64,000 nucleotides of DNA, taken from contig JALSLK010000103.1 in assembly GCA_026988355.1 (NCBI GenBank), forward strand, positions 1-64,000, in the 5' to 3' direction. This DNA is from Flavobacteriaceae bacterium. Its GTDB lineage: Bacteria > Bacteroidota > Bacteroidia > Flavobacteriales > Flavobacteriaceae. Below are positions 23,971-36,685 of the stretch, piece by piece (within the stretch, counting starts at the first letter, position 1; every line of letters begins with the position of its first letter). The notes under the pieces are model-generated. The model saw only the letters and a program-made list of their open reading frames with translations, ran no database searches and had not been told where the DNA came from. A program made the translations under genes and the position numbers.

Positions 23971-24696
23971 ATGCAAAACTATTTCATCATAGATCATAAT
24001 ATAAATACTGTTAAAAAAATAAAAACAGTATTGCATGATTTCCCAAAAGTAACATGTATTGGGATTTCCGAAAATAAAGACGATGCTTTAAATTTAATCT
24101 TGAAAAATACACCAGATATTATTTTTATAAATATTGACGATACTGTGGATGATTATCCTAGATTTTTATCGGAAATTCGTCATTATTGCAAAAAAGATTT
24201 TGCTTTTGTTGCTTTATCCGATTCTAGAGACCAAGCTTATGATACTTACAAATATGATTTTTTTGATTATTTACTAAAACCCATTGTCGAACTTTCTTTA
24301 CGAAAATGTATCTTAAAGTTTAAAAAAAAACATCCGAAGAAGATTTGCAATAAAATTTGCCTTAAATCTTACAAAGATTTTCACTATTTGAATACAGATG
24401 AAATTCTTTTTTTAAAAGCCGACAATAATACTACTGATTTTCACATGCATGATGGTTCTATTGTAAGTGCCTATAAAACACTTAAAATATTTGAAAACAG
24501 ATTGCCACAAAATTTCTTACGCATACACAAAAGTTATATTATAAATAGCAACTGTATTTCTAGAATACACTATGGAAAATCACAATGCATTATCAAAAAA
24601 AATTCACATAGAATTCCTTTTACAAAAACTTTTATTAATAATATTGACTTTATTAATACCAAACTATCCAATAACATTTTTACGGTATTAAATTAA
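23971..24696 (+). CDS. LytTR DNA-binding regulator with degenerate receiver domain
   Basis: 241 residues. The N-terminal half has the receiver fold, but the phosphoacceptor aspartate is replaced: FINIDD places Asn54 where FLDI has Asp, and the usual acidic pair near residue 8 is Asp-His. The switch lysine (DYLLKPI) remains. The C-terminal LytTR domain is intact, with NTDEILFLKADNNTTDFH and FLRIHKSYIINS. It probably binds DNA without classical phosphorylation, or responds to another cue. No cognate LytS kinase is adjacent. It is the first plus-strand gene before the signalling and peptide region. Confidence 0.85.
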   Translation: MQNYFIIDHNINTVKKIKTVLHDFPKVTCIGISENKDDALNLILKNTPDIIFINIDDTVDDYPRFLSEIRHYCKKDFAFVALSDSRDQAYDTYKYDFFDYLLKPIVELSLRKCILKFKKKHPKKICNKICLKSYKDFHYLNTDEILFLKADNNTTDFHMHDGSIVSAYKTLKIFENRLPQNFLRIHKSYIINSNCISRIHYGKSQCIIKKNSHRIPFTKTFINNIDFINTKLSNNIFTVLN

Positions 24697-25053
24697 TCTA
24701 AATTTGATAAATCCGTAAAAATGGAATTCTGTTATCAATCTTTCTTTTTTTACAACTATTTCTTATATAATTCTAACGTATTTATATAAAAAACAGATCC
24801 TCTAAATTTTTCTTTTTCTTCAAATATTATTTTTTTTTGAAATCTATTTCCCTATCAAAAAACAGAGTTTCACTAACAAACCCATACTTTTCACTAAAAT
24901 AAGTGTATTTACTTAGTTTTAAATTGATTATGTGCATAATTTAGTCTTGATTATATGAGGATTTAATACTAAAAAACGATATTAATTTATTTTTTTTCAC
25001 AATTATTTCCTAACAAAATATAACACATTTATTAATTTTTAAAATTTTATATT
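24697..25053 (+). other. AT-rich intergenic region before the small lipoprotein gene
   Basis: No gene or terminator stands out. TAGTCTTG at 24942-24949 is one mismatch from TAnnTTTG and could drive the lipoprotein gene with a leader of about 100 nt. Confidence 0.3.
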
Positions 25054-25215
25054 ATGAAAACATTAAAGAGATTATTTATTCTAACATTATTTTTAAATTT
25101 ATTTACCTCCTGTACTAATTTTGAAGAATTAGATACAGTTGATGATTCCGAAAATATTGCATTAGTAGATACTGGAGATGAGGGAGAAGAAGTTGATGAA
25201 ACTGAAAAAGATTAG
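25054..25215 (+). CDS. Small acidic lipoprotein, function unknown
   Basis: 53 residues. MKTLKRLFILTLFLNLFTSC is a signal peptide with the lipobox LFTSC (Cys20). The 33 residues after it are strongly acidic (about 16 Asp or Glu) and contain no basic residue apart from one near the end (ETEKD). It sits about 80 bases before the histidine kinase gene, which also starts with a signal and a possible lipobox. A role as an accessory or ligand-presenting factor for that sensor is only a positional guess. Confidence 0.6.
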   Translation: MKTLKRLFILTLFLNLFTSCTNFEELDTVDDSENIALVDTGDEGEEVDETEKD

Positions 25216-25295
25216 CGTATTAGAAATTAATTATCCATAAATATTATTATAGTTAAAGACATTTTCATAGATTTGTTACCAACAATAATTACTTT

Positions 25296-27332
25296 TTGAA
25301 AATAAAAACTATATATAAAAAATGCTTTATATATCTGTTCTTAATTTTCTCTCTACAATATTGTAACTTAAAAAAAGGGGATTTAAAGCAGTCAAATATA
25401 AAAAATGACAGCATTGTTTTGTGGATAAAACATGCTAAGGATACTTCGTATTCAATATCTAAACGTAACTATTTTTTAAAACAATCTTACCATACCATAA
25501 AATTTAGTAAAAAAGATACTTTATCTACTAGAAGATTGGCTTCGATTGCTTATCAATACTTAAAACTTAAGGACACCCTTCGTTTTAAAAAAATAAACAA
25601 AGAAGCCTTTCAATTTGCACAACAACTTAAAGATAGTTTTGCTTTAGCAGACATACATTGGAATAATGCAAATTTTTATAAAAAAAAAGAAATTTACGAG
25701 AAATCGTATTACCATTATAATAAGGCATTTATTTATTTTGAAAATATAAACAAACAATATTTTGCTGCAAAAATGTTGTATGGCATGTCGTTCATTAAAG
25801 GTCGCTTAAGAGATTACTCTGGTAGTGAAATATTAATTATAAAAGCGATTTCTAAATTCGAAGCGTTAAATAAATACAAATCTTTATATTCTTCATATAA
25901 TCATTTAGCGCTTCTACAAAAAGATATAAAAGAGTATGACTTGTCCCTATTTTATAATAAAAAAGCAATTAAATATTTAGATAGAATAAAACCAAATAGT
26001 GAACTTCTAGAAATTAGCTTTAATAATATTGGCATTGTCTATCAAGAAAAAGGAGAATATACAAATGCGATTAAATATTTTGATAAAGTTTTAAAAAACA
26101 CCAATTTAAAGGCTAAAAATATTGGTCGATATGCTAGAATTATTGATAATCTAGCATTTTGTAAATTACTTAATAAGGATACTATTAATATTAAGCATTT
26201 TTTTTATGAATCTTTAAAAATAAGAGATAGTATAAAAAATAAAGGTGGCAAAATTATTGCAAAAATTCATTTAGCAACTTACTATTTAAAAATTAAAGAT
26301 TCTGTAAAATCATTACAATACGCTAAAGAAGCAAATTTATTGGCAAAAAAAATAAATAATAATAGAGACTACTTATCTTCTTTAAAATTATTGTCAAAAA
26401 TAGATGCAAAAAACGCAAATAGATATTTAGAAAAGTATATTATTTATAATGATAGCTTACATAATGCCGAACGAAAGATTCACAATAAGTTTACTCGAAT
26501 TGAATACGAAACAGAGCAATATATCGAAAAAGCAGCTTTTTTATCGCAACAAAAAATGTTTATATTGATTTCTAGTATTGGTATACTTATAACCTTATCT
26601 TTATTTTACATTGTTAAAGTTCAAAAATCTAAAAATAAAAATCTACAATTAGAAACAGAACAACAAAAGGCAAATGAACAAATATATATTTTAACCCTAA
26701 ATCAACAAGAAAAACTGGAAAATGAAAAGAGAATTGAACAAAATAGAATCTCAGAAGAATTACACGATGGTATTCTCGGAAACCTTTTTGGGACACGTGT
26801 TGGTTTAGGTTTTCTAAAATTAAATGGAAGTACAACAACCTTAAACAAATACCAATCTTTTTTAAATGATTTACAAGATATTGAAAAGGAAATTAGAGAT
26901 GTTTCACACAGATTAAATGATAATATTGGTAATATCGAAATTGGTTTTAGCTCTATTATTTACCAACTACTTAATAAGAGAAGTAAAATGGGAAATTTTA
27001 ATAGCGAATTACTTATTAGTGATGAAATTGTATGGGATGATATTAATAAAATAATCAAGGTAAATTTATACCGAATTTTACAAGAAGCGCTACAGAATAT
27101 TATTAAATATGCAAAAGCAAAACAAGTCACATTACATTTTACAATAGAAAACGGCAACTTAATCCTAATTATTACTGATGACGGAATAGGCTTTAACACC
27201 TCAAAACGCAACAAAGGAATCGGAATTAAAAATATTAAATCTCGAGCTGTTAAATTAAATGCCTCTCTCCAAATTAATTCAAGTATTAATAAAGGGACTA
27301 CAATAAACATTGAAATTCCTCTAAATAACTAA
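25296..27332 (+). CDS. TPR sensor histidine kinase
   Basis: 678 residues. The start is TTG: no ATG is near, and MKIKTIYKKCFIYLFLIFSLQYC gives a signal sequence with a possible lipobox at its end. Residues 60-400 form tetratricopeptide-like helical repeats (for example ISFNNIGIVYQEKGEYTNAI) on the outer side. A single membrane helix lies near 421-442. A coiled coil leads to a HisKA_3-type dimerisation domain with His490 in ISEELHDGILGN, then an ATPase domain with EALQNIIKYAKA and DDGIGFN. The response regulator follows 9 bases later and is surely its partner. Confidence 0.88.
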   Translation: MKIKTIYKKCFIYLFLIFSLQYCNLKKGDLKQSNIKNDSIVLWIKHAKDTSYSISKRNYFLKQSYHTIKFSKKDTLSTRRLASIAYQYLKLKDTLRFKKINKEAFQFAQQLKDSFALADIHWNNANFYKKKEIYEKSYYHYNKAFIYFENINKQYFAAKMLYGMSFIKGRLRDYSGSEILIIKAISKFEALNKYKSLYSSYNHLALLQKDIKEYDLSLFYNKKAIKYLDRIKPNSELLEISFNNIGIVYQEKGEYTNAIKYFDKVLKNTNLKAKNIGRYARIIDNLAFCKLLNKDTINIKHFFYESLKIRDSIKNKGGKIIAKIHLATYYLKIKDSVKSLQYAKEANLLAKKINNNRDYLSSLKLLSKIDAKNANRYLEKYIIYNDSLHNAERKIHNKFTRIEYETEQYIEKAAFLSQQKMFILISSIGILITLSLFYIVKVQKSKNKNLQLETEQQKANEQIYILTLNQQEKLENEKRIEQNRISEELHDGILGNLFGTRVGLGFLKLNGSTTTLNKYQSFLNDLQDIEKEIRDVSHRLNDNIGNIEIGFSSIIYQLLNKRSKMGNFNSELLISDEIVWDDINKIIKVNLYRILQEALQNIIKYAKAKQVTLHFTIENGNLILIITDDGIGFNTSKRNKGIGIKNIKSRAVKLNASLQINSSINKGTTINIEIPLNN

Positions 27333-27341
27333 ATAAAAAAA

Positions 27342-28028
27342 ATGACGAAAAATAAAAATTATACGGTATTAATCATTGACGATCATCCAATAATATCGGA
27401 AGCGTATAAAAGCGCTTTTAAACACATTAGTGAACACGATAATACAATCTCTTTTATAATTGATGTTGCTGATAATTGCGATATTGCCTATGAAAAAATT
27501 AAATATTTTGCTAACAATAATAAAATTTTGGATATTGTTTTTTTAGACATGAGACTTCCTCCTTCAAAAGATGGAAAAATTTTATCTGGAGACGATTTAG
27601 GTCTAAAAATAAATAAATTATTACCAGATACTAAAATTATTGTTTCTACCACTTTTAATGACAATTATAGGATTCATAGTATTTTTAAAAGTATTAATCC
27701 TGATGGTTTTTTAGTAAAAAATGACATCACTCCTAGTGAATTAATTACAACTATAAAAACTATTATTAGAGATCCGCCATATTATAGTAAAACTATTATT
27801 AAACTGCTTCGGAAAGAAGTTTCTAATGATTTTTTGCTCGATGAGATTGATAGAAAAATATTATACGAACTCTCTATTGGTACAAAAATGAAAGATTTAC
27901 CTACGATTGTTCCATTATCTATTGCTGGTATCGAAAAACGAAAACGTCACTTAAAAGATATTTTTAATATTGATGGTATTGGCGATAAAGAGTTAATCCA
28001 AAACGCCAAAGATAGAGGTTTTATATAG
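27342..28028 (+). CDS. NarL/LuxR-like response regulator
   Basis: 228 residues. The receiver has an intact acidic pocket (LIIDDHP) and phosphoacceptor Asp69 in IVFLDMRLPP, with the switch lysine in FLVKNDI. The C-terminal part, EIDRKILYELSIGTKMKDLP then SIAGIEKRKRHLKDIF, has the helix spacing of a LuxR-type DNA-binding domain but a divergent sequence. Co-transcribed with the TPR kinase. Its targets are unknown; the peptide locus 550 bases downstream on the same strand is the nearest candidate. Confidence 0.82.
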   Translation: MTKNKNYTVLIIDDHPIISEAYKSAFKHISEHDNTISFIIDVADNCDIAYEKIKYFANNNKILDIVFLDMRLPPSKDGKILSGDDLGLKINKLLPDTKIIVSTTFNDNYRIHSIFKSINPDGFLVKNDITPSELITTIKTIIRDPPYYSKTIIKLLRKEVSNDFLLDEIDRKILYELSIGTKMKDLPTIVPLSIAGIEKRKRHLKDIFNIDGIGDKELIQNAKDRGFI

Positions 28029-28138
28029 TCATTCCTTACAAAGTCAAAATTTAAAACAAGATTTTGCTTAAAAAATTGAAATTTCAAATAGATCAATATT
28101 TTTTCAAGTTCAAGTTTTAATTTATTCTTCATTTTCTT

Positions 28139-28350
28139 TAAACTCTTTTTTGATATTGGGTATCTCTTTTTAACTGTCTATGATCTGGTGTAAGTATTTT
28201 TTTTGTATTTCCTATTAGTTTTTATCCTTTTCCTCCTCTATCATAAATTAATTCTTCTGGTGTATATCCTATATTTTCTTCCATTTGATTTAGTAATGAT
28301 TCAATAGTTTTACTGTCGTGTGGATTTCCTTCAAAACTTTTTATGGCTGT
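28139..28350 (-). pseudogene. Remnant of a DDE (IS5-type) transposase
   Basis: Read on the minus strand, the sequence gives NPHDSKTIESLLNQMEEN, then ELIYDRGGKG, an in-frame stop, then KKILTPDHRQLKRDTQYQKR and further stops. The HDSKT and YDRGGKG blocks resemble the catalytic core of IS5-like transposases. Only about 70 codons remain, with stops at 28222-28224 and beyond, so it is dead. No inverted ends were found. It marks old mobile-element activity immediately upstream of the peptide locus. Confidence 0.65.
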
Positions 28351-28354
28351 TATT

Positions 28355-28420
28355 ATACCAAATCAACATCAAAATACGCTATAAATTAGTTATCTTTTCA
28401 CGTTTTACTGCACTTTAAAT
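28355..28420. repeat. Left half of MITE-like repeat
   Basis: ATACCAAATCAACATCAAAATACGCTATAAAT through TGCACTTTAAAT matches the left half of copy 2 (13601). The right half is missing; the small reading frame at 28419 starts at the break. Confidence 0.6.
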
Positions 28421-28574
28421 GGAATTGAAATTAAAAGGAGTAAATAAAAAGTGGCGTAAAAAATTAGTTACAAAATTATTAGGTAGTCCAAAAGAAATAA
28501 TAAGGAAGTTCATTACTTTTTCTACGGTAAAAAATCTCAAGACATTATCAATATATGATAGTTTTGGAATATAA
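28419..28574 (+). CDS. Possible small basic peptide upstream of the radical SAM gene
   Basis: An open frame of 51 codons. The product is very basic in its first half (VNKKWRKKLVTKLLG) with an amphipathic look and ends in YDSFGI. It stops 10 bases before the radical SAM start. The start codon lies on the edge of a repeat and the coding signal is weak, so it could be fortuitous, a leader peptide, or a gene remnant. No family is recognised. Confidence 0.3.
   Translation: MELKLKGVNKKWRKKLVTKLLGSPKEIIRKFITFSTVKNLKTLSIYDSFGI
28559..28566 (+). promoter_or_regulatory. Candidate promoter of the RiPP-like operon
   Basis: TAGTTTTG matches TAnnTTTG exactly, 18 bases before the radical SAM ATG. No clear TTG was seen at -33, so the site may need an activator. 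Confidence 0.4.
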
Positions 28575-28584
28575 ATTTTAACCT

Positions 28585-29937
28585 ATGAATTACAAATTAT
28601 CAAAATATTTAGTTTTTTCAGAACCAATAATAAATTCTAATTATAGATTAGTTTATTCAACAATTTCAACAACATTGACTTTATTAAAAGTTAATATATA
28701 TGATAAGTTAATAAATAAAGATTTTTTTAGTTTAAAAAACGATAGCATATTTGATAGACTTATTTCTTCAAAAATAATAATTGATAAAACAAGAAATGAA
28801 TTAGAACAAATTATTAAATATAATAAAAAGGCTATAGCAAACGAAAATGTACTATATCAAATAATATCTCCATCTGCAAACTGTCAACTTGGGTGTAATT
28901 ATTGCGGTCAAGTTCATACTAAAAAGTCGCTTGATGATAATTTAAATAAAAAAATTACAGCCAGAATTGCTGTTAATATAACCTTAAAGAAATACAAACA
29001 TTTACATATAGGTTGGTTTGGCGCAGAGCCATTAATGGGTTTGAAAAATATAAAAAAACTAACTTTGGGATTTATGAATTTAGCGAATAAAAATAATTGT
29101 TCTTACTCGGCTAATATGATAACCAATGGCCTTAGTTTAAAAAAAGATATTTTTTTTGATTTAGTCGAAAAATACAAAATCACCAAGTTTGAAATTACAT
29201 TAGACGGAACTCAAAAACATCATGATTTAAGAAGACATACCAAACTAAAAGAAAAAACATTTAGCTTAATTTTCAAAAACTTAAAAAATATTGTCAATGA
29301 CAATCGGTTTGAAAAATCTAAACATAAAATAATTATAAGATGCAATGTTGACAGCTCAAATTATAAAAGCACGTACGATTTAATTAATTTATTGGAAGTT
29401 GAAAAAATATTGGATAAAATCTCATTTTATACAGCCCCAATACATTCTTGGGGAAATGATGCGCATTTAAAATCACTTACACATGAAGAATATTCTGAAT
29501 TTCAAATAGAAACTTTTATTGAATTAATAGATAAAAAACACAAAGTTGTATTATTGCCAGGTATTAAAACTCCGATAGTATGTACAAGTTTATATGAACA
29601 TGCAGAAGTATTTGACACTGATGGAAATGTCTTTAACTGTACAGAAATATCTCAGGTACCTATTTATGAAAATGATGATTCGTTTAAAGTAAAAAAACTA
29701 TATGATGAAACATACACTAATAATAACAGACCTTATTCTTCATGGAATGATGATATCTTAAATGGAGAAGTTCCATGTACGAATTGTGTCATATTACCAA
29801 TTTGTGGTGGTGCTTGTCCAAAACTATGGAAAGAGAATATATCTCCCTGCCCTCCAATTAAATATAATATAAAAGACAGATTATTATTACATTTTTCTCA
29901 AAATAATAGAAAAATATTAAGTAAAAAAAATGTTTGA
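28585..29937 (+). CDS. Radical SAM/SPASM peptide-modifying enzyme
   Basis: 450 residues. The radical SAM cluster motif CX3CX2C is at Cys100, Cys104 and Cys107 (NCQLGCNYCG), with GWFGAEPLMG and the later EITLDGTQKHHD as the glycine-rich and SAM-binding parts. A SPASM domain closes the protein: cysteines near 331 and 350, then Cys398, 401, 407, 411 and 422 (VPCTNCVILPICGGACPKLW), enough for auxiliary Fe-S clusters. This type installs thioether, carbon-carbon or epimer changes in ribosomal peptides. A 47-residue candidate substrate follows 62 bases later. The exact reaction cannot be told from sequence. Confidence 0.88.
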   Translation: MNYKLSKYLVFSEPIINSNYRLVYSTISTTLTLLKVNIYDKLINKDFFSLKNDSIFDRLISSKIIIDKTRNELEQIIKYNKKAIANENVLYQIISPSANCQLGCNYCGQVHTKKSLDDNLNKKITARIAVNITLKKYKHLHIGWFGAEPLMGLKNIKKLTLGFMNLANKNNCSYSANMITNGLSLKKDIFFDLVEKYKITKFEITLDGTQKHHDLRRHTKLKEKTFSLIFKNLKNIVNDNRFEKSKHKIIIRCNVDSSNYKSTYDLINLLEVEKILDKISFYTAPIHSWGNDAHLKSLTHEEYSEFQIETFIELIDKKHKVVLLPGIKTPIVCTSLYEHAEVFDTDGNVFNCTEISQVPIYENDDSFKVKKLYDETYTNNNRPYSSWNDDILNGEVPCTNCVILPICGGACPKLWKENISPCPPIKYNIKDRLLLHFSQNNRKILSKKNV

Positions 29938-29999
29938 TCAACATCTAGGAGAAAGCTGAAAATCCTTAAAGAGTAAGCATAACATTAAATATTTTTAAA

Positions 30000-30143
30000 A
30001 TGAAAAAAATAGAAAAATTAAGAAACGAATTAGATTTAATTCAATTAGAAGACCGATTAGAAATGGTGAATTTAGCTGCTGTAGACACTACTACAACTGA
30101 AACAGCGGGTAATGGCGTATGTTGTTGTAGCGAGGCTAAATAA
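30000..30143 (+). CDS. Candidate RiPP precursor peptide with C-terminal CCC motif
   Basis: 47 residues. The first half (MKKIEKLRNELDLIQLEDRL) is charged and helical like a recognition leader. The end is short and distinct: DTTTTETAGNG then VCCCSEAK, with four threonines in a row and three adjacent cysteines. There is no double-glycine cleavage site. Position between a radical SAM/SPASM enzyme and a membrane protease, small size, and a strong hairpin directly after the stop all fit a peptide precursor. Family not recognised; modification sites are unknown. Confidence 0.75.
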   Translation: MKKIEKLRNELDLIQLEDRLEMVNLAAVDTTTTETAGNGVCCCSEAK

Positions 30144-30150
30144 TTCTACA

Positions 30151-30187
30151 TTAAACCAATGTAAGACTATTTCTTACATTGGTTTAA
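30151..30187 (+). terminator. Hairpin after the precursor gene
   Basis: TTAAACCAATGTAAGA (30151-30166) and its exact complement (30172-30187) form a 16-bp perfect stem with a five-base loop, 7 bases after the precursor stop. The T tract is weak, so it may be a partial terminator or an mRNA-stabilising end that gives more precursor than downstream enzyme. Confidence 0.65.
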
Positions 30188-30242
30188 AAATTCATACAAT
30201 ACCAAATAGATAGATGTAAATAATTTAAAGAGGAAATATTTA

Positions 30243-31388
30243 ATGGAAAAGACAATTGATAATTTTGTAAATACCTTAGAATTAAGTGATAATACAGAAA
30301 AGTATACTTTAATTTACTTAAACAAAAGCTATTATATAAAGAAATTTTTATATGATTTTTTTTTAATTGCAAAAAAAAAAAATTTTAATACTGCAATCAA
30401 TAAGCTAAAAACCAATAATAATTTATCCGATATTGAATTTGAATCTCTAAAAAAATCCATTAATAATGTGATTGAAGAAATAGTTAATAGTGAAGAAAGT
30501 AAAAAATATATAAACTACTCAATTGTTCTATTTTCTAAAAATTTGGTTAATCACTTCTCGAATAAGCTTACTTGGTTATTTCATAAAAAAATTTTCATAA
30601 CATTAATATTAATGTCAATTTCCGTTAGTGTTTACATATTTTTTTTCTATCCTTTAAATGTTAAAATATCTAATGTCTCAATTCTTGAAACTGTAGCAAG
30701 TTATATTATCATTTTTACAATTTTAATACTACATGAATTTGGTCATGCCTCTTCATCAGCATACTATAAAATTAAACCCGAAGAAATTGGCTTTGGATTT
30801 TACTTGATATTTCCTGTTCTTTTTGCAAATGTGACCAAAATATGGAAACTAAAACGGAATCAAAGAATTGTAGTTAATTTGGCTGGAATATATTTTCAAT
30901 TAATTATTAATATTCTCTTATTCATATTTTTTATACTAATTGGAAGTAAAAGCTCCTACATACTAAGCATCATGAAAATTAATATTTTGGTAGTCTTATA
31001 CTCACTAATCCCTTTTATACGAAATGATGGATATTGGATTTATTCCGATTATTTTGACATCCAAAATCTCAATCAAAAATCCAATACATTTTTTTATCAA
31101 CTATTTAAGAGAATCATTCGAAAAGATAAAACAGTCAACTTTTCATTAGCTCTAATAATATACAGCTCAGGAAATTACGCTTTTTTAGGATATATCATGT
31201 ATAAATTTATTTTAAAATTTCCAGAAACAATTAATGAAATTATATATATCTTTAATGAAAATGGAGCAAAATCAATACTAACAAATCACTTTGGTCTAAT
31301 AATTAAACTTTTAATATTTGTTTTTCTAAGTAGCATAATTTATAAATCTATAATTTCTTGGTTTAAAGAAATTTTAAAATCTAGATAA
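30243..31388 (+). CDS. M50-like membrane metalloprotease of the peptide locus
   Basis: 381 residues. About 115 soluble N-terminal residues, possibly a peptide-binding region, precede five or six membrane helices. The zinc site HEFGH is at His164-Glu165-His168 and a second conserved NDGYW near residue 261 supplies the aspartate ligand, as in site-2-type proteases and YydH-like proteins of peptide operons. It would cut the modified precursor in or near the membrane. AAAGAGGAAA 11 bases upstream is a ribosome site. Next gene begins 1 base after its stop. Confidence 0.82.
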   Translation: MEKTIDNFVNTLELSDNTEKYTLIYLNKSYYIKKFLYDFFLIAKKKNFNTAINKLKTNNNLSDIEFESLKKSINNVIEEIVNSEESKKYINYSIVLFSKNLVNHFSNKLTWLFHKKIFITLILMSISVSVYIFFFYPLNVKISNVSILETVASYIIIFTILILHEFGHASSSAYYKIKPEEIGFGFYLIFPVLFANVTKIWKLKRNQRIVVNLAGIYFQLIINILLFIFFILIGSKSSYILSIMKINILVVLYSLIPFIRNDGYWIYSDYFDIQNLNQKSNTFFYQLFKRIIRKDKTVNFSLALIIYSSGNYAFLGYIMYKFILKFPETINEIIYIFNENGAKSILTNHFGLIIKLLIFVFLSSIIYKSIISWFKEILKSR

Positions 31389-31389
31389 C

Positions 31390-32526
31390 ATGAAAAAAGA
31401 ATATTTTAAAAACATAAAAGAGGTAATTGAAAAATCCTCAAAAAGAGCTTCATCAGTATTGGATATTAATTCTAATGAACGACTAAATTATTTAAAATTT
31501 AAATCTGCTTTTAACTATTTATATCCCATTATTAAAGGTAGTAAAAATGATTATCGAGAATATTTAATTAATAAAGAGTTAACAAGTCTAGAAATTAATT
31601 ACATCCATTTACTAGAGAAAAATGGATTTTCCAGTCATAACGGAATTAAAGATCTAGGGGATACTCCAAATATTTTTTGCTCATTTCATATGGGATCCTA
31701 TATTTCAGTTTGCTATTATTTGGTGAAAAATAATATTACCTTTTCAATCGTAATGGGAGAAGAAAGTTTTAATGAAAAAAAAGAAATGTTTCTATTTGCA
31801 TATAAAAAAACTTTAAGTGTATTAAAAAACTCAACCTCAAAAATAGATTTCATTAATGGAGAAAAAAAAAATTCGATTATATCAATGATAAAATCTACAC
31901 GAAAAGGAAAAAGTTTACTTTTTTATATTGACGGAAATAAAGGAGTTAAAGAATTTGACAATAATGATGATAATCTAGTTGAAATAGACTTTCTAAATGT
32001 GAGTATATATTCTAGAAAAGGCATATCCTACCTGTCAAATTACCTAAAAATAAATATTATTCCAATTATTTCATATAGAGAGTCTCACAACAAAATTAAA
32101 GTTAATTTCTTAGATCCTATTTCTTATGAAGGAAACGATCGAGAAAAATATTGTTTAGAAACTACTCAAAAAATTTGGAGTCAATTTTTAGTATATTTTA
32201 AAAAATATCCACTACAATGTGAATCCATTTACTATATCAATCAATTTAGAAAACCATATTTTCAAAAAAAAGATAAAGGATTTAATATTAAAGACATCTT
32301 TAGATTTAATTCTAATAGATATGAGTTTTATCAATTGGATAAAAAAATAATCTATGACAAATATAATGGTTTATCAAAAAAACTTTCTGATGGTTATTCT
32401 GATTTCTTATATAAAATTCATCAAAAAAATATTGAATTATTAGGCTCTGATTTAATGGCAATAATAAATAATAAGGCTATCATAACTACATTAGTTGAGA
32501 ATGAATATTTAATAAAAAACAATTAA
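31390..32526 (+). CDS. LpxL/HtrB-like acyltransferase-fold protein
   Basis: 378 residues, no signal peptide. The middle resembles lysophospholipid acyltransferases: PNIFCSFHMGSYISV carries the block-I histidine (His100), LLFYIDGNKGV (Asp181-Gly182) matches block II/III, and INIIPIISYRE the block IV. The usual HX4E/D dyad is altered: the sixth residue is Ile105 instead of an acid. It therefore may use another base, bind lipid without catalysis, or have a new reaction. Its start is 1 base after the M50 gene stop, so the two are translationally coupled. It could lipidate the peptide. Confidence 0.65.
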   Translation: MKKEYFKNIKEVIEKSSKRASSVLDINSNERLNYLKFKSAFNYLYPIIKGSKNDYREYLINKELTSLEINYIHLLEKNGFSSHNGIKDLGDTPNIFCSFHMGSYISVCYYLVKNNITFSIVMGEESFNEKKEMFLFAYKKTLSVLKNSTSKIDFINGEKKNSIISMIKSTRKGKSLLFYIDGNKGVKEFDNNDDNLVEIDFLNVSIYSRKGISYLSNYLKINIIPIISYRESHNKIKVNFLDPISYEGNDREKYCLETTQKIWSQFLVYFKKYPLQCESIYYINQFRKPYFQKKDKGFNIKDIFRFNSNRYEFYQLDKKIIYDKYNGLSKKLSDGYSDFLYKIHQKNIELLGSDLMAIINNKAIITTLVENEYLIKNN

Positions 32527-32610
32527 CTTTACTAGTATCTGTAAAAAATATTTTTTAAGCAAAGAATACTATTTTATTGTATTTTTTTACAAACATAAAT
32601 CAAGTATCTT

Positions 32611-33678
32611 ATGAAAAAAAAAATCAAAATTCTTTTAAAACTCTTATTAACCGCATTATTAATTTGGCCTGTATATTATTTCATCACTAAAAAAAATGCA
32701 CAAGAAGAGACTTATATCACAAAAAAACTTCAAAAAAGAGATCTAAAAAATTTCATTATTTGTTCTGGTATTATTTTACCAAAAGAAGAAGTAGAAATCA
32801 AATCTAGGGTTTCTGGTGTCTTAGAAAAAATTTATGTAAAAAATGGAGATAGTATCCACAAAAATCAAATTATTGCAAAAATAAAAATCATTCCAGATAT
32901 AGAACGTTTATCCTCTTCTCAAATAGAAATAAATGTAGCAAAAAATCGCTTCAATAATAAAAAAGCAATTTACAATCGTAACAAAGAATTATTCGAAAAA
33001 GGAATTGTAGCAAAATCAAAATTCGAAATAATAGAAACCGATTATTTGAATGCACTAGAAGACTTAAAAAACACAAAAAGAACCTATCAAATTGTTAAAT
33101 CAGGAAATTATAGTGGAGGAACAACAAATACGTCTATTGTTTCGACAATAGATGGTGTAGTAACATTATTACCCATAAAAGTTGGTTCTTCTGTAATTCA
33201 AAGTAATAACTTTAGTGAAGGAACAACTATCGCAAAAGTTGCAAATATTGACGAAATGATTTTTGAAGGAAATGTAAAAGAATATGAAGTTGCAAAACTT
33301 ACCAAAGGCATGCCTGTCAAAATAGCTACGGCAATAAGTGACAAAGAAGAAGATGGTATACTCTCCGAAATATCAACTAGTGGTAAAAACACGGATGGAT
33401 TAATATTATTTGAAATAAAATCCAAATTGACAAACTCAAAAATTAGAAAAACAGGATTTAGTGCAAATGCAAAAATTATCATTAAAGAGAAAAAAAATAT
33501 TTTATGTTTAAAAGAAAAATGGATTACTTTTAGTAATGACACCTCTTACGTATACATTCATAAAAATGATGATAAATATGAAAAAAGAGCAATTAAACTC
33601 GGTATTTCTGATGGTGTTTATACCGAAGTTATTTCTGGAATAAAAGAGAATGAAAGCATAAGAATATATGATAACTAA
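32611..33678 (+). CDS. Periplasmic adaptor (MacA/HlyD family)
   Basis: 355 residues. A single N-terminal membrane helix (ILLKLLLTALLIWPVYYFI) anchors it. A lipoyl/barrel-sandwich half motif (VEIKSRVSGVLEKIYVKNGDSIHKNQ without the full run) is followed by a helical hairpin around residues 105-165 and the second half (STIDGVVTLLPIKVGSSV), then beta-barrel and membrane-proximal domains. It overlaps the permease gene by 11 bases, so they form a MacA/MacB-type pair for export across the envelope. A TolC-like partner must come from elsewhere. Confidence 0.85.
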   Translation: MKKKIKILLKLLLTALLIWPVYYFITKKNAQEETYITKKLQKRDLKNFIICSGIILPKEEVEIKSRVSGVLEKIYVKNGDSIHKNQIIAKIKIIPDIERLSSSQIEINVAKNRFNNKKAIYNRNKELFEKGIVAKSKFEIIETDYLNALEDLKNTKRTYQIVKSGNYSGGTTNTSIVSTIDGVVTLLPIKVGSSVIQSNNFSEGTTIAKVANIDEMIFEGNVKEYEVAKLTKGMPVKIATAISDKEEDGILSEISTSGKNTDGLILFEIKSKLTNSKIRKTGFSANAKIIIKEKKNILCLKEKWITFSNDTSYVYIHKNDDKYEKRAIKLGISDGVYTEVISGIKENESIRIYDN

Positions 33679-34906
33679 AGATGAAATAATTGAAATAACG
33701 GAAACGCTAAAAAAAAACAAATCCAGAACGCTTCTTACCGCTTTTGGTGTTTTTTGGGGAATTTTTATGCTATTATTATTGTTAGGTTCTGGAGATGGAT
33801 TGGAAAAAGGAGTTACGAATATGTTTAAAGGATTTGATATTAATAGTTTTCATATTTATAGCGATAAAACTAAGATTCCATACAAAGGCGTAAAAGACAA
33901 TCGAAAAATAAGAATTACAAATGAAGATTTAGATATTATCAAAAAAAAATTTAAAAAAAATATTAAATATATTGGCGCAAGATCGTATACATATAATGCA
34001 ACTTTAGTACAAAATAATAGGCAGAATGAAAAATACGAAATATATGGTGTAGAATCTGATATTTTTTACATCCGAAATGTGAAATTAAATGCTGGTAGAT
34101 ACATCAATAAACTTGATAATAATCGGAGTAGACTTGTTGCAGTAATTGGATCTAAAGTTAAAAAAGAATTATATAATAATAAAAATACAATTGGTAAGTT
34201 TATTCAAATTAATAATAGTTTTTATAAAATAATTGGCGTTTTTAAGTCTTTAAAAGAAGGAGAAGAAGCAAATGAGCAAAACAAAACTATTATAATTCCA
34301 CACACATCGTTTCAAAAAAATTTTAATAGAAAAAATACAATGGACAACATTGGTATTGTTGCTACAAATAACAAAACCGAACGTCAAATTTTAAGTTTTT
34401 TAAAAGAGCGTCATAAAGTACATCCAGACGATGAAGCAATTTATACATGGAATACCAGAGAAGAATTTTCAAAATATACTGGATTATTTAAAGCAATTAG
34501 AATGTTTATGTGGATTATTGGTATTGGAACATTATTATCTGGAATAGTTGGTGTTAGTAATATCATGGTAATAAATATAAAAGAAAGAACCAAAGAAATA
34601 GGAATTAGAAAAGCAATTGGAGCAAAACCTTTTTCTATTATAAAAATGATTATTTTAGAATCTGTTTTTCTAACGAGTATTTCGGGTTATCTGGGTTTAT
34701 CTTTTGGCTTATTATTAATTGAAGGTGTAAACTATTCCTTAAATTTATTTGATTTAAAAAGTGGTTTTTTTTTAAATCCAGAAATTAATTTATTTGTAGT
34801 AATATCGGCAATTCTCACACTGCTATTGTCAGGTTTCTTTGCAGCGTACCTTCCTGCAAAAAAAGCAGCAATGATTAGACCAATTGAAGCACTCCGAGAA
34901 AATTAA
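33668..34906 (+). CDS. MacB-type ABC transporter permease
   Basis: 412 residues. One N-terminal helix (FGVFWGIFMLLLLLGSGDG), a large periplasmic MacB_PCD domain, then three FtsX helices with the coupling segment IVGVSNIMVINIKERTKEIG and GIRKAIGA. No ATPase domain is present and no separate LolD-like ATPase is encoded beside it. It overlaps the adaptor gene and ends in a small hairpin, so it is the last gene of the peptide locus. Likely exporter or extrusion module for the mature peptide. Confidence 0.85.
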   Translation: MITKDEIIEITETLKKNKSRTLLTAFGVFWGIFMLLLLLGSGDGLEKGVTNMFKGFDINSFHIYSDKTKIPYKGVKDNRKIRITNEDLDIIKKKFKKNIKYIGARSYTYNATLVQNNRQNEKYEIYGVESDIFYIRNVKLNAGRYINKLDNNRSRLVAVIGSKVKKELYNNKNTIGKFIQINNSFYKIIGVFKSLKEGEEANEQNKTIIIPHTSFQKNFNRKNTMDNIGIVATNNKTERQILSFLKERHKVHPDDEAIYTWNTREEFSKYTGLFKAIRMFMWIIGIGTLLSGIVGVSNIMVINIKERTKEIGIRKAIGAKPFSIIKMIILESVFLTSISGYLGLSFGLLLIEGVNYSLNLFDLKSGFFLNPEINLFVVISAILTLLLSGFFAAYLPAKKAAMIRPIEALREN

Positions 34907-34930: not shown

Positions 34931-36685
34931 CTAATTCATTTCTGATAATTGCTGATTATAGATTTCTCGATAATAACCTTTTGTATTTTTTAATTCTTTA
35001 TGTGTTCCAGCTTGAATTAACTTACCTTCGTCTAAAACAATAATAGCATCTGCATTTTTAACAGACGATACACGATGACTTATAATTATTGTAGTTACTC
35101 CCTCGCTTATCTTTTTTAAATTAGTCAAAATAATTTCTTCCGTTTCGGTATCTACAGCAGATAAACAATCGTCAAACACCAAAATATTTGGAGAGCCAAT
35201 AATTGCTCTTGCTATGGAAACTCTTTGCTTTTGACCTCCAGATAAAGTTACACCACGTTCTCCAACCATAGTTTGATAACCATCTGTAAAACCAACGATA
35301 TTATGATGTATGTAGGCATTTTTTGCAGCATTCTCAACTTCAATATCGGTAGCGTCGTGTTTACCAAATCGAATATTGTCTTTTATCGTTTCCGAAAATA
35401 AAAAACCATCTTGAGGCACAAAACCAATTGCCTCTCTTAAGCTTTTTAGATGAATCTTCTTAATGGGTTTATCATCAATTAATATATCTCCGCCCGTAAC
35501 ATCATACAACCTAGAAATTAGATTTACAATAGTAGATTTTCCAGATCCTGTTTTCCCAAGTATTGCTAATGTCTTTCCTCTTTCTATGGTAAAACTTACT
35601 TTTTTTAACGCTTCTATATTAGTGTCTTCATAGGTAAAAGACACCTCATTAAAAGTAATTTTTCCATGAATCTCTGTTGGTGTATTTGTTGTATTTTGTA
35701 TTCCAGATTCTTCTTCTAAAAACTCATTAATACGTTTTTGAGAAGCCTCAGCTTGTTGAATTATAGAGGTTACCCATCCAACAACAGCAACTGGCCAAGT
35801 AAGCATATTAACATAGATAATGAATTCTGCAACGATTCCAATATTGGCAATCTGACCATTAATATAACGCATACCTCCAATATAAATTACTAAAATATTA
35901 CTAATACCAATTAGTAAAATCATCAATGGAAAAAATAGAGCTTGTGCTTTATATAAAGAAATATTTTTCTCCTTACTTTCAACAGCTAAAGCGTCAAAAT
36001 TAGTGACACTTTGATTTTCTATTGCATACGCTTTAATAACATGAATTCCAGAAAAAGTTTCTTGTGCTAAAGTGGTTAATTTAGACAAATATTGTTGTAC
36101 TAAAGTACTTCGTTTATGAATTATTTTACTCAGTAAATAAATAGAAATCGATAAAATTGGCAATGGCAATAATGTATACATCGTTAATGTTGCATCAATA
36201 CTTATCATTTTTGTTAATGCAACCGTAAAAAGCATTAACATATTAATGGTATACATAATTGCAGGACCAAAATACATTCTAACTTTACCGACATCCTCGC
36301 TAATACGATTCATTAAATCGCCAGTTCTATTTTTTTTATAAAAACCAAGCGAAAGATTTTCATATTGTCTAAATATTTCATTTTTTAAATCGAATTCTAT
36401 CAAACGAGACATTACAATTAAAGTTTGTCGCATTAAAAAAGTAAAAAAACCAGACAACAAAGCAGCTCCAATAATCCATAAAATATTATCTAATAAAGTT
36501 GATTTTACAATAACTAAATCTGTAATTAAACCTTTATTATAATCTTCAACAACATTTAAAGAATTTTTAATAAAAGAAGGTATCTGTACTGCCAATATTT
36601 TTGAAAAAATGGTAATAACAATTCCAAATATCAAGCGATATTTGTATGTAACAAAATATTTATTCAAATATTGTAAGGCTTTCAT
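34931..36685 (-). CDS. ABC exporter, fused membrane and ATPase domains (MsbA-like)
   Basis: 584 residues. Six membrane helices lie in residues 20-310, then an ATPase domain with Walker A GKTGSGKST near residue 375, signature LSGGQKQRVSIARA near 479 and Walker B NILVFDDCLSAVD. It matches Bacteroidota MsbA/multidrug exporters; substrate unknown (lipid or drug). It is convergent with the peptide locus and has its own promoter, so it is probably a separate housekeeping gene. Confidence 0.92.
   Translation of the reverse strand: MKALQYLNKYFVTYKYRLIFGIVITIFSKILAVQIPSFIKNSLNVVEDYNKGLITDLVIVKSTLLDNILWIIGAALLSGFFTFLMRQTLIVMSRLIEFDLKNEIFRQYENLSLGFYKKNRTGDLMNRISEDVGKVRMYFGPAIMYTINMLMLFTVALTKMISIDATLTMYTLLPLPILSISIYLLSKIIHKRSTLVQQYLSKLTTLAQETFSGIHVIKAYAIENQSVTNFDALAVESKEKNISLYKAQALFFPLMILLIGISNILVIYIGGMRYINGQIANIGIVAEFIIYVNMLTWPVAVVGWVTSIIQQAEASQKRINEFLEEESGIQNTTNTPTEIHGKITFNEVSFTYEDTNIEALKKVSFTIERGKTLAILGKTGSGKSTIVNLISRLYDVTGGDILIDDKPIKKIHLKSLREAIGFVPQDGFLFSETIKDNIRFGKHDATDIEVENAAKNAYIHHNIVGFTDGYQTMVGERGVTLSGGQKQRVSIARAIIGSPNILVFDDCLSAVDTETEEIILTNLKKISEGVTTIIISHRVSSVKNADAIIVLDEGKLIQAGTHKELKNTKGYYREIYNQQLSEMN

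Follow-up and report, generated by a model that had tools for sequence, protein, structure and literature searches.

Contig JALSLK010000103.1 of a Flavobacteriaceae bacterium (assembly GCA_026988355.1) was analysed over positions 1 to 64,000, the stretch of 64 kb that we call the window. Between positions 28,585 and 34,906 it holds a cassette that, judged from its sequence, is a gene cluster for a ribosomally synthesized and post-translationally modified peptide (RiPP) and would make a small modified peptide. The original prediction, made from the letters alone, had listed six plus-strand genes here, and all six are present as ATG-initiated open reading frames (ORFs). The features are as follows (aa, amino acids).

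28585–29937, plus strand: radical SAM/SPASM peptide maturase, ATG ORF of 450 aa, by profile matches
28882–28905, plus strand: CX3CX2C motif of the radical SAM enzyme, codons 100–107 (Cys100, Cys104 and Cys107)
29581–29850, plus strand: SPASM cysteines, codons 333–422 (Cys333, 352, 398, 401, 407, 411 and 422)
30000–30143, plus strand: precursor peptide, ATG ORF of 47 aa, leader and cysteines conserved in homologous loci
30045–30062, plus strand: LEDRLE leader motif of the precursor
30120–30128, plus strand: the three consecutive Cys codons of the precursor core, whose C-terminus reads NGVCCCSEAK
30243–31388, plus strand: M50 (site-2-protease type) membrane metalloprotease, presumed leader peptidase, ATG ORF of 381 aa
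30732–30746, plus strand: HEFGH motif of the M50 protease
31026–31028, plus strand: Asp262 of its DGYW motif
31390–32526, plus strand: LPLAT-fold (PatA/LpxM-like) acyltransferase, ATG ORF of 378 aa, fold from an AlphaFold model
31687–31689, plus strand: His100 of the acyltransferase
31930–31932, plus strand: Asp181 of the acyltransferase
32251–32523, plus strand: C-terminal domain of the acyltransferase, residues 288–378, a winged helix resembling a RiPP recognition element (RRE)
32611–33678, plus strand: MacA/HlyD-type periplasmic adaptor, ATG ORF of 355 aa, RND_mfp above cut-off
33668–34906, plus strand: MacB-type ABC permease subunit without ATPase domain, ATG ORF of 412 aa

The locus thus combines what defines a RiPP cluster: a short precursor with a conserved leader and a variable core, and adjoining maturases. 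In gene order, the genes are spaced by 62, 99, 1 and 84 bases and end in an 11-base overlap, so that the tight junctions originally noted hold for the M50/acyltransferase and MacA/MacB pairs but not for the other three. The radical SAM protein scored 35 bits with the SPASM model TIGR04085 (cut-off 27) and 31.5 with Radical_SAM (cut-off 29.5), and has both the CX3CX2C motif and the auxiliary-cluster cysteines of a SPASM maturase. These cysteines had been described as intact; Cys100/104/107 and the seven SPASM cysteines are invariant in all 10 members of the enzyme's clade (see below). Likewise, the M50 protease exceeded the Peptidase_M50 cut-off (35 versus 27.2) with an HExxH motif and a distal Asp, and its zinc site is intact as predicted, the HExxH and DGYW residues being invariant in a four-member alignment.

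To place the cassette among its relatives we scanned all genomes with the M50 alignment, because the sequences in the acyltransferase alignment (A1) differ too much for such a pattern scan; the resulting 80 loci are hence ascertained through M50. Small ORFs carrying the motif LE[DENQ]R[LFYM]E occurred at 44 of the 80 loci, 110 ORFs altogether, every one on the strand of the M50 gene and none on the opposite strand. In the whole 64 kb window, the precursor is the sole small ORF with this motif. Given this uniqueness and the 110:0 strand bias in related loci, the window peptide is not a chance ORF. Lack of conservation of the peptide frame had been named in advance as an outcome that would speak against the prediction; the frame is conserved at homologous loci. 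In one of these (L039 of genome G453, apparently the same record as the Edaphocola flava locus L059), three tandem peptides of 57–61 aa, flanked by the same enzymes, have their leader in common with the window precursor.

The cores are far more variable. Three peptides of the uncultured Tenacibaculum locus L040 end in VCCCSD plus two residues, and a further one has LCSCC; other Cys-rich cores read NGCCCGSDGTC (Arcticiflavibacter), NSSCCFSSGH (Flavobacterium), NYCCTGSD (Chryseobacterium) and DCCCVNGSC (Draconibacterium). Because the number of cysteines differs from locus to locus, the hallmark of the family is the LExRLE leader and not the Cys-Cys-Cys sequence that had been singled out in the window, where it is nevertheless present. 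Profile searches matched the window precursor to none of the curated families, and ten related precursors compared with NCBIfam gave nothing beyond one match at chance level. Read by eye, the window precursor has no signal peptide or lipobox; its N-terminus is charged and no hydrophobic stretch precedes the cysteines.

The acyltransferase recurs with this module. Its ORF was called at 44 of the 80 M50 loci, and tblastn added two more (L047 and L049), against a background of 7 in 395 genomes of the class; its partners at these loci are a radical SAM enzyme, an arginase-family enzyme (PF00491) or neither. We had considered assigning the cysteines as the acylation site through an association with the acyltransferase. 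This was dropped, since cysteines are also found in precursors of M50 loci that are free of the acyltransferase, and two loci (L061 and L088) hold the acyltransferase together with Cys-free motif peptides. In a separate setting (L036:8871–9237, also L035:8663–8893), the acyltransferase adjoins Cys-Cys peptides with a different leader and no M50 or radical SAM gene; at L036 there are two identical peptide copies, near LytTR and response-regulator genes.

The radical SAM enzymes tell the same story of co-occurrence. The window enzyme is 65–73% identical to its counterparts in the Tenacibaculum, Arcticiflavibacter and Flavobacterium cassettes, and a maximum-likelihood tree of 20 radical SAM proteins placed it within a clade of 10 (support 96/94). 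All 10 clade loci, with Tenacibaculum, Flavobacterium and Chryseobacterium among the hosts, carry the acyltransferase, the M50 protease and a Cys-rich peptide whose leader and Cys core are conserved; the clade is partly ascertained, as its loci were mostly found via M50. Radical SAM proteins of GG-leader/C39-exporter systems fell outside this clade, and the distant homologues (36–45% identity) mostly belong to such systems, which lack the module of acyltransferase, M50 protease and Cys-rich peptide. A search of the 395 class genomes with the radical SAM protein returned three non-self matches: G453, a module-bearing member of the window clade; G748, whose exporter is of the C39 type; and G153, where M50 and P450 genes are present and no acyltransferase. 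The other outcome held to speak against the prediction, radical SAM and M50 homologues occurring in most genomes without peptide and acyltransferase, was not observed, the clade being complete at 10 of 10 loci. Outside the phylum, Paucibacter, Pelomonas and Roseateles (Burkholderiales) have M50, acyltransferase and radical SAM genes in a row, the last 41–43% identical to that of the window, with a peptide whose leader is VELDQRFEMVNA and which has a single Cys. The cassette type therefore crosses phyla.

What kind of protein the acyltransferase is was clearer from structure than from sequence. It scored below the cut-off of Pfam PF03279 (13.7 versus 22.3), which its relative at L083 passes with 34.8, and a PDB sequence search gave no match. 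In contrast, its AlphaFold model (predicted local distance difference test, pLDDT, 74.7) matched PatA (E = 5.5e-11) and LpxM (E = 3.8e-10) in Foldseek, so that the predicted fold is that of LPLAT/lipid A acyltransferases and not the GNAT fold. An alignment of 52 family members has His100 in 52 and Asp181 in 51. The acid of the HX4D/E motif is absent from the window protein, where H100 is followed by I105, and is not conserved in the family, most members having Arg, Leu, Lys, Met or Gln at this position. This loss does not rule out activity, because in PatA it is E200 that partners the catalytic His, the HX4D acid being arranged differently (PMC4792965); Asp181 may take the role of E200 here. 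The protein could instead be a catalytically dead or repurposed LPLAT that serves as a scaffold, presents the leader or works as a hydrolase; the peptide would then be radical SAM-modified and lipid-free. The unconserved motif acid, the recognition-like domain fused to the LPLAT part and the missing Trp277 of the window copy would fit this, but a scaffold has no need of the strictly kept His100 and Asp181, nor does it account for the ketosynthase, acyl carrier protein and dehydratase genes that stand in line with the acyltransferase at L108. We consider it unlikely.

The last 91 residues of the acyltransferase are modelled as a domain of their own (pLDDT 90.5), with strands first and then three helices. 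In the model this domain looks like a RiPP recognition element, a feature that is common but not universal on RiPP maturases. Among its top twelve Foldseek matches, proteins that recognize RiPP leaders were in the majority (lasso B1 proteins, SuiB and ThcOx), none of the matches being individually significant. The M50 protease has an RRE-like N-terminal domain, which matches the N-terminal domain of the arginases in profile comparison. When the terminal domains of acyltransferase, M50 protease, arginase and radical SAM enzyme were compared in this way, five of six pairs gave probabilities of 56–96% and the sixth 11.6%, while the maximum among 90 control pairs was 9.3%.

Several loci may point to a source of acyl groups. 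Of 43 loci with the acyltransferase, 13 have a neighbouring ketosynthase gene, against 4 of the other 35 (Fisher p = 0.057, for loci that are not independent). At L108:8971–18795, genes for arginase, acyltransferase, ketosynthase, acyl carrier protein, dehydratase, ATPase, MacA, MacB and a TolC-like protein follow one another in a row. In Neolewinella (L046:958–11634 and L048), M50 and acyltransferase genes and three to five leader peptides adjoin flexirubin-type genes, of which two at L046 pass flexirubin cut-offs, FlxA (tyrosine ammonia-lyase) and FlxY; these contexts hint at peptides acylated with an aryl polyene. The FlxA and FlxY neighbours, and the fact that the closest curated families are lipid A lauroyl acyltransferases, could also be taken to mean that its substrate is not the peptide. 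The enzyme would then act on a lipid or pigment, such as lipid A, a phospholipid or a flexirubin-type polyene, that is required for self-protection, for export or for a co-produced pigment. We regard this as very unlikely in view of the peptide-recognition-like C-terminal domain, the widespread pairing of the acyltransferase with precursor/M50 modules, and its position beside CC-type peptides at L035 and L036, where neither M50 nor radical SAM genes occur.

The exporter genes were predicted to be a MacA/MacB pair, and the matches agree (RND_mfp 113 against a cut-off of 94.9 for MacA; MacB_PCD 101 and FtsX 57 for MacB); the MacB gene, however, lacks an ATPase domain and no ATPase gene is adjacent, so that a complete MacAB tripartite exporter is not encoded in the cassette. 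MacB is 73% and MacA 57–61% identical to their counterparts in L040 (radical SAM type) and L108 (arginase type), and MacB was not matched in any of 118 related genomes at E ≤ 1e-100. Because it is absent from these relatives yet close to the L040 and L108 exporters, the pair looks dedicated to the module. The locus most closely related to the cluster as a whole is L040, which has the same gene order, with genes for a 280-aa TPR-like protein and a 224-aa ATPase between acyltransferase and MacA; in the window this interval measures 84 bases. No counterpart of the TPR-like gene was found in the window genome; the closest ATPase there (64% identity) lies on another contig in a separate ATPase-MacB-MacB-MacA operon. 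The absence of both L040 genes could mean that the cluster is decaying in the window or does not export its product, but all six ORFs are intact with their key residues kept, and the 64% identical ATPase could serve in trans; in our judgement, decay is an unlikely explanation. Upstream, L040 (3809–6182) and L108 (5864–8355) have a trio of genes in common, which encode a ThiF-like protein, a regulator of the LuxR type and a protein that Pfam does not match; the clusters are otherwise different.

Gene identities, the conserved leader, the co-occurrence of the genes, the acyltransferase fold and the shared recognition-like domain were computed directly. Putting these together, we favour, as reasonably probable, a RiPP cluster with a peptide-directed LPLAT-fold acyltransferase, whose product would be radical SAM-modified, acylated, cleaved by M50 and exported by MacAB. 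In such a pathway, the 47-aa precursor would be recognized via its LEDRLE leader by the winged-helix (RRE-like) domains on the maturases. The radical SAM/SPASM enzyme would act on the Cys-rich core, where it would probably form a cross-link in which cysteines take part. The LpxL-like protein would acylate the peptide, using acyl-ACP or acyl-CoA as the fatty acyl donor; candidate sites are an N-terminus freed by proteolysis, a Cys or a side-chain amine. The M50 membrane protease would remove the leader; M50 proteases are known to cleave in epipeptide and pearlin pathways (PMC10885120). Finally, the MacA/MacB-type pair would export the lipopeptide with an ATPase drawn from elsewhere in the genome. 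A modified and possibly lipid-bearing exported peptide is also what the original prediction proposed, and this proposal gains support, as the outcomes named against it were looked for and did not occur.

Several observations weigh against this interpretation. The ketosynthase association is only suggestive, and no ketosynthase lies inside the window cassette itself. The window acyltransferase has Cys in place of the consensus Trp277 and Tyr in place of the consensus Pro246, the best Foldseek match of its C-terminal domain (E = 0.25) is not significant, and some leader-bearing M50 loci have no acyltransferase. The window cluster also holds no ATPase gene.

None of the known systems that we compared coincides with the cluster. 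The locus had been likened to YydG/YydH-type operons, and epipeptide operons (YydF/YydG/YydH; EpeX) indeed surround a short peptide with genes for a radical SAM enzyme, an M50 protease and ABC-type export. The window, however, adds an acyltransferase and a Cys-rich core, has no match to the YydG model among 22 radical SAM matches, and its M50 protease reached 49.1 against the 225 set for YydH/LiaK (NF058609); it is not an epipeptide locus. The best curated model for the radical SAM enzyme was the SPASM maturase TIGR04463 (rSAM_vs_C_rich), matched over nearly the full length with 185.7 bits but below its cut-off of 525. For the M50 protease it was the daptide model NF041824 (90.1 bits, below the cut-off of 300), and no other daptide gene was seen in the window cluster, which is not a daptide operon either.

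Lipidated RiPPs are known from other routes. GNAT acyltransferases lipidate lipolanthines (such as microvionin), goadvionins, lipoavitides, selidamides and nostolysamides (PMC13060382); these have in common with the window a ribosomal precursor, maturases and, as we propose here, an acyl chain on the peptide, some with dedicated fatty-acid genes. The window differs by its LPLAT fold and fused recognition-like domain, by a radical SAM or arginase partner in place of a lanthionine synthetase, and by an unrelated leader. PatA and LpxM resemble the window enzyme in fold and in the conserved catalytic-type His, but it lacks their HX4D/E acid and has an extra C-terminal domain and RiPP-gene partners. 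The DybA RiPP-lipoprotein hybrids are lipidated ribosomal peptides of the same phylum that depend on a signal peptide and lipobox and on Lgt/LspA/Lnt (PMC12636315), whereas the window peptide has neither signal peptide nor lipobox. The peptide arginases OspR, FlmR and OhkR belong to pfam12640 and act on NHLP, N11P, SCIFF, SCCRRSCN and DD(I/V)LF precursors (PMC12703449). As arginase-type maturases of RiPP precursors they resemble the arginase branch of the LExRLE family, whose enzyme is instead PF00491 with the LExRLE leader; an acyltransferase is not mentioned in that paper.

In the open-access literature searched, we found no earlier description of the leader motif or of LpxL or LPLAT proteins with RiPPs. 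The combination of LpxL-like protein and CCC peptide, put forward as new, accordingly has no precedent there, but it is not unique to the window: the acyltransferase/M50/leader module recurs widely with radical SAM, arginase and other partners. More tentatively, at somewhat less than an even chance, these loci may form a phylum-crossing RiPP superfamily defined by an LExR(L/F)E leader, an M50 protease and leader-recognizing LPLAT-fold acyltransferases, modular with radical SAM, arginase or other maturases, and in part fed by fatty-acid or flexirubin-type aryl-polyene synthesis. If the proposed function is true, many Bacteroidota and some Burkholderiales would have a distinct enzyme route to lipidated RiPPs, based on a lipid-A-type acyltransferase fused to a domain that resembles those for peptide recognition. 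Leader motif and acyltransferase provide simple handles for genome mining, and the radical SAM, arginase and plain versions of the cluster make the acyl step testable by co-expression.

The surroundings bear on the role and origin of the cassette. Directly upstream, at 23971–28028, lie a LytTR regulator, a small lipoprotein-like ORF, a TPR-histidine kinase and a response regulator. Membership of the two-component genes in the cassette found no support, as they have no homologues in L040, L041, L042, L057, L079 and L108. Their position suggests a secreted signalling lipopeptide sensed by the adjoining two-component system, a role compatible with the chemistry proposed above; LytTR or response-regulator genes also adjoin L034–L036 (acyltransferase and small peptide) and L038 (acyltransferase). 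Against this stand the same lack of homologues at those six loci and some 550 bases without a clear gene between the regulators and the cassette, and we judge it quite unlikely. On the minus strand, the stretch 28040–28424 contains a short open segment (ITAIKSFEGNPHDSKTIESLLNQMEENIGYTPEELIYDRGG) that by eye resembled a degraded IS (insertion sequence) transposase, which Pfam did not confirm. A plasmid search gave no match. The G+C content of the cassette is about 22–28%, poorer than parts of the flanks. Acyltransferase and MacB were missing from five draft congeneric genomes, in three of which the flanking ABC transporter (34931–36685) is present with no cassette-side window gene within the available contig.

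Further neighbours were seen in the survey. L020 (5453–12410) and L110 combine a leader peptide, M50 and radical SAM genes and a truncated radical SAM-like protein, with cores that end in KICWLA or KICW; the L020 cluster additionally encodes a cytochrome P450 and a squalene-cyclase-like protein. At L042–L045 and L079, lantibiotic-dehydratase-like proteins, recognized by eye, are encoded on the minus strand upstream of the radical SAM gene and divergent from the cassette, which suggests that these loci are RiPP islands.

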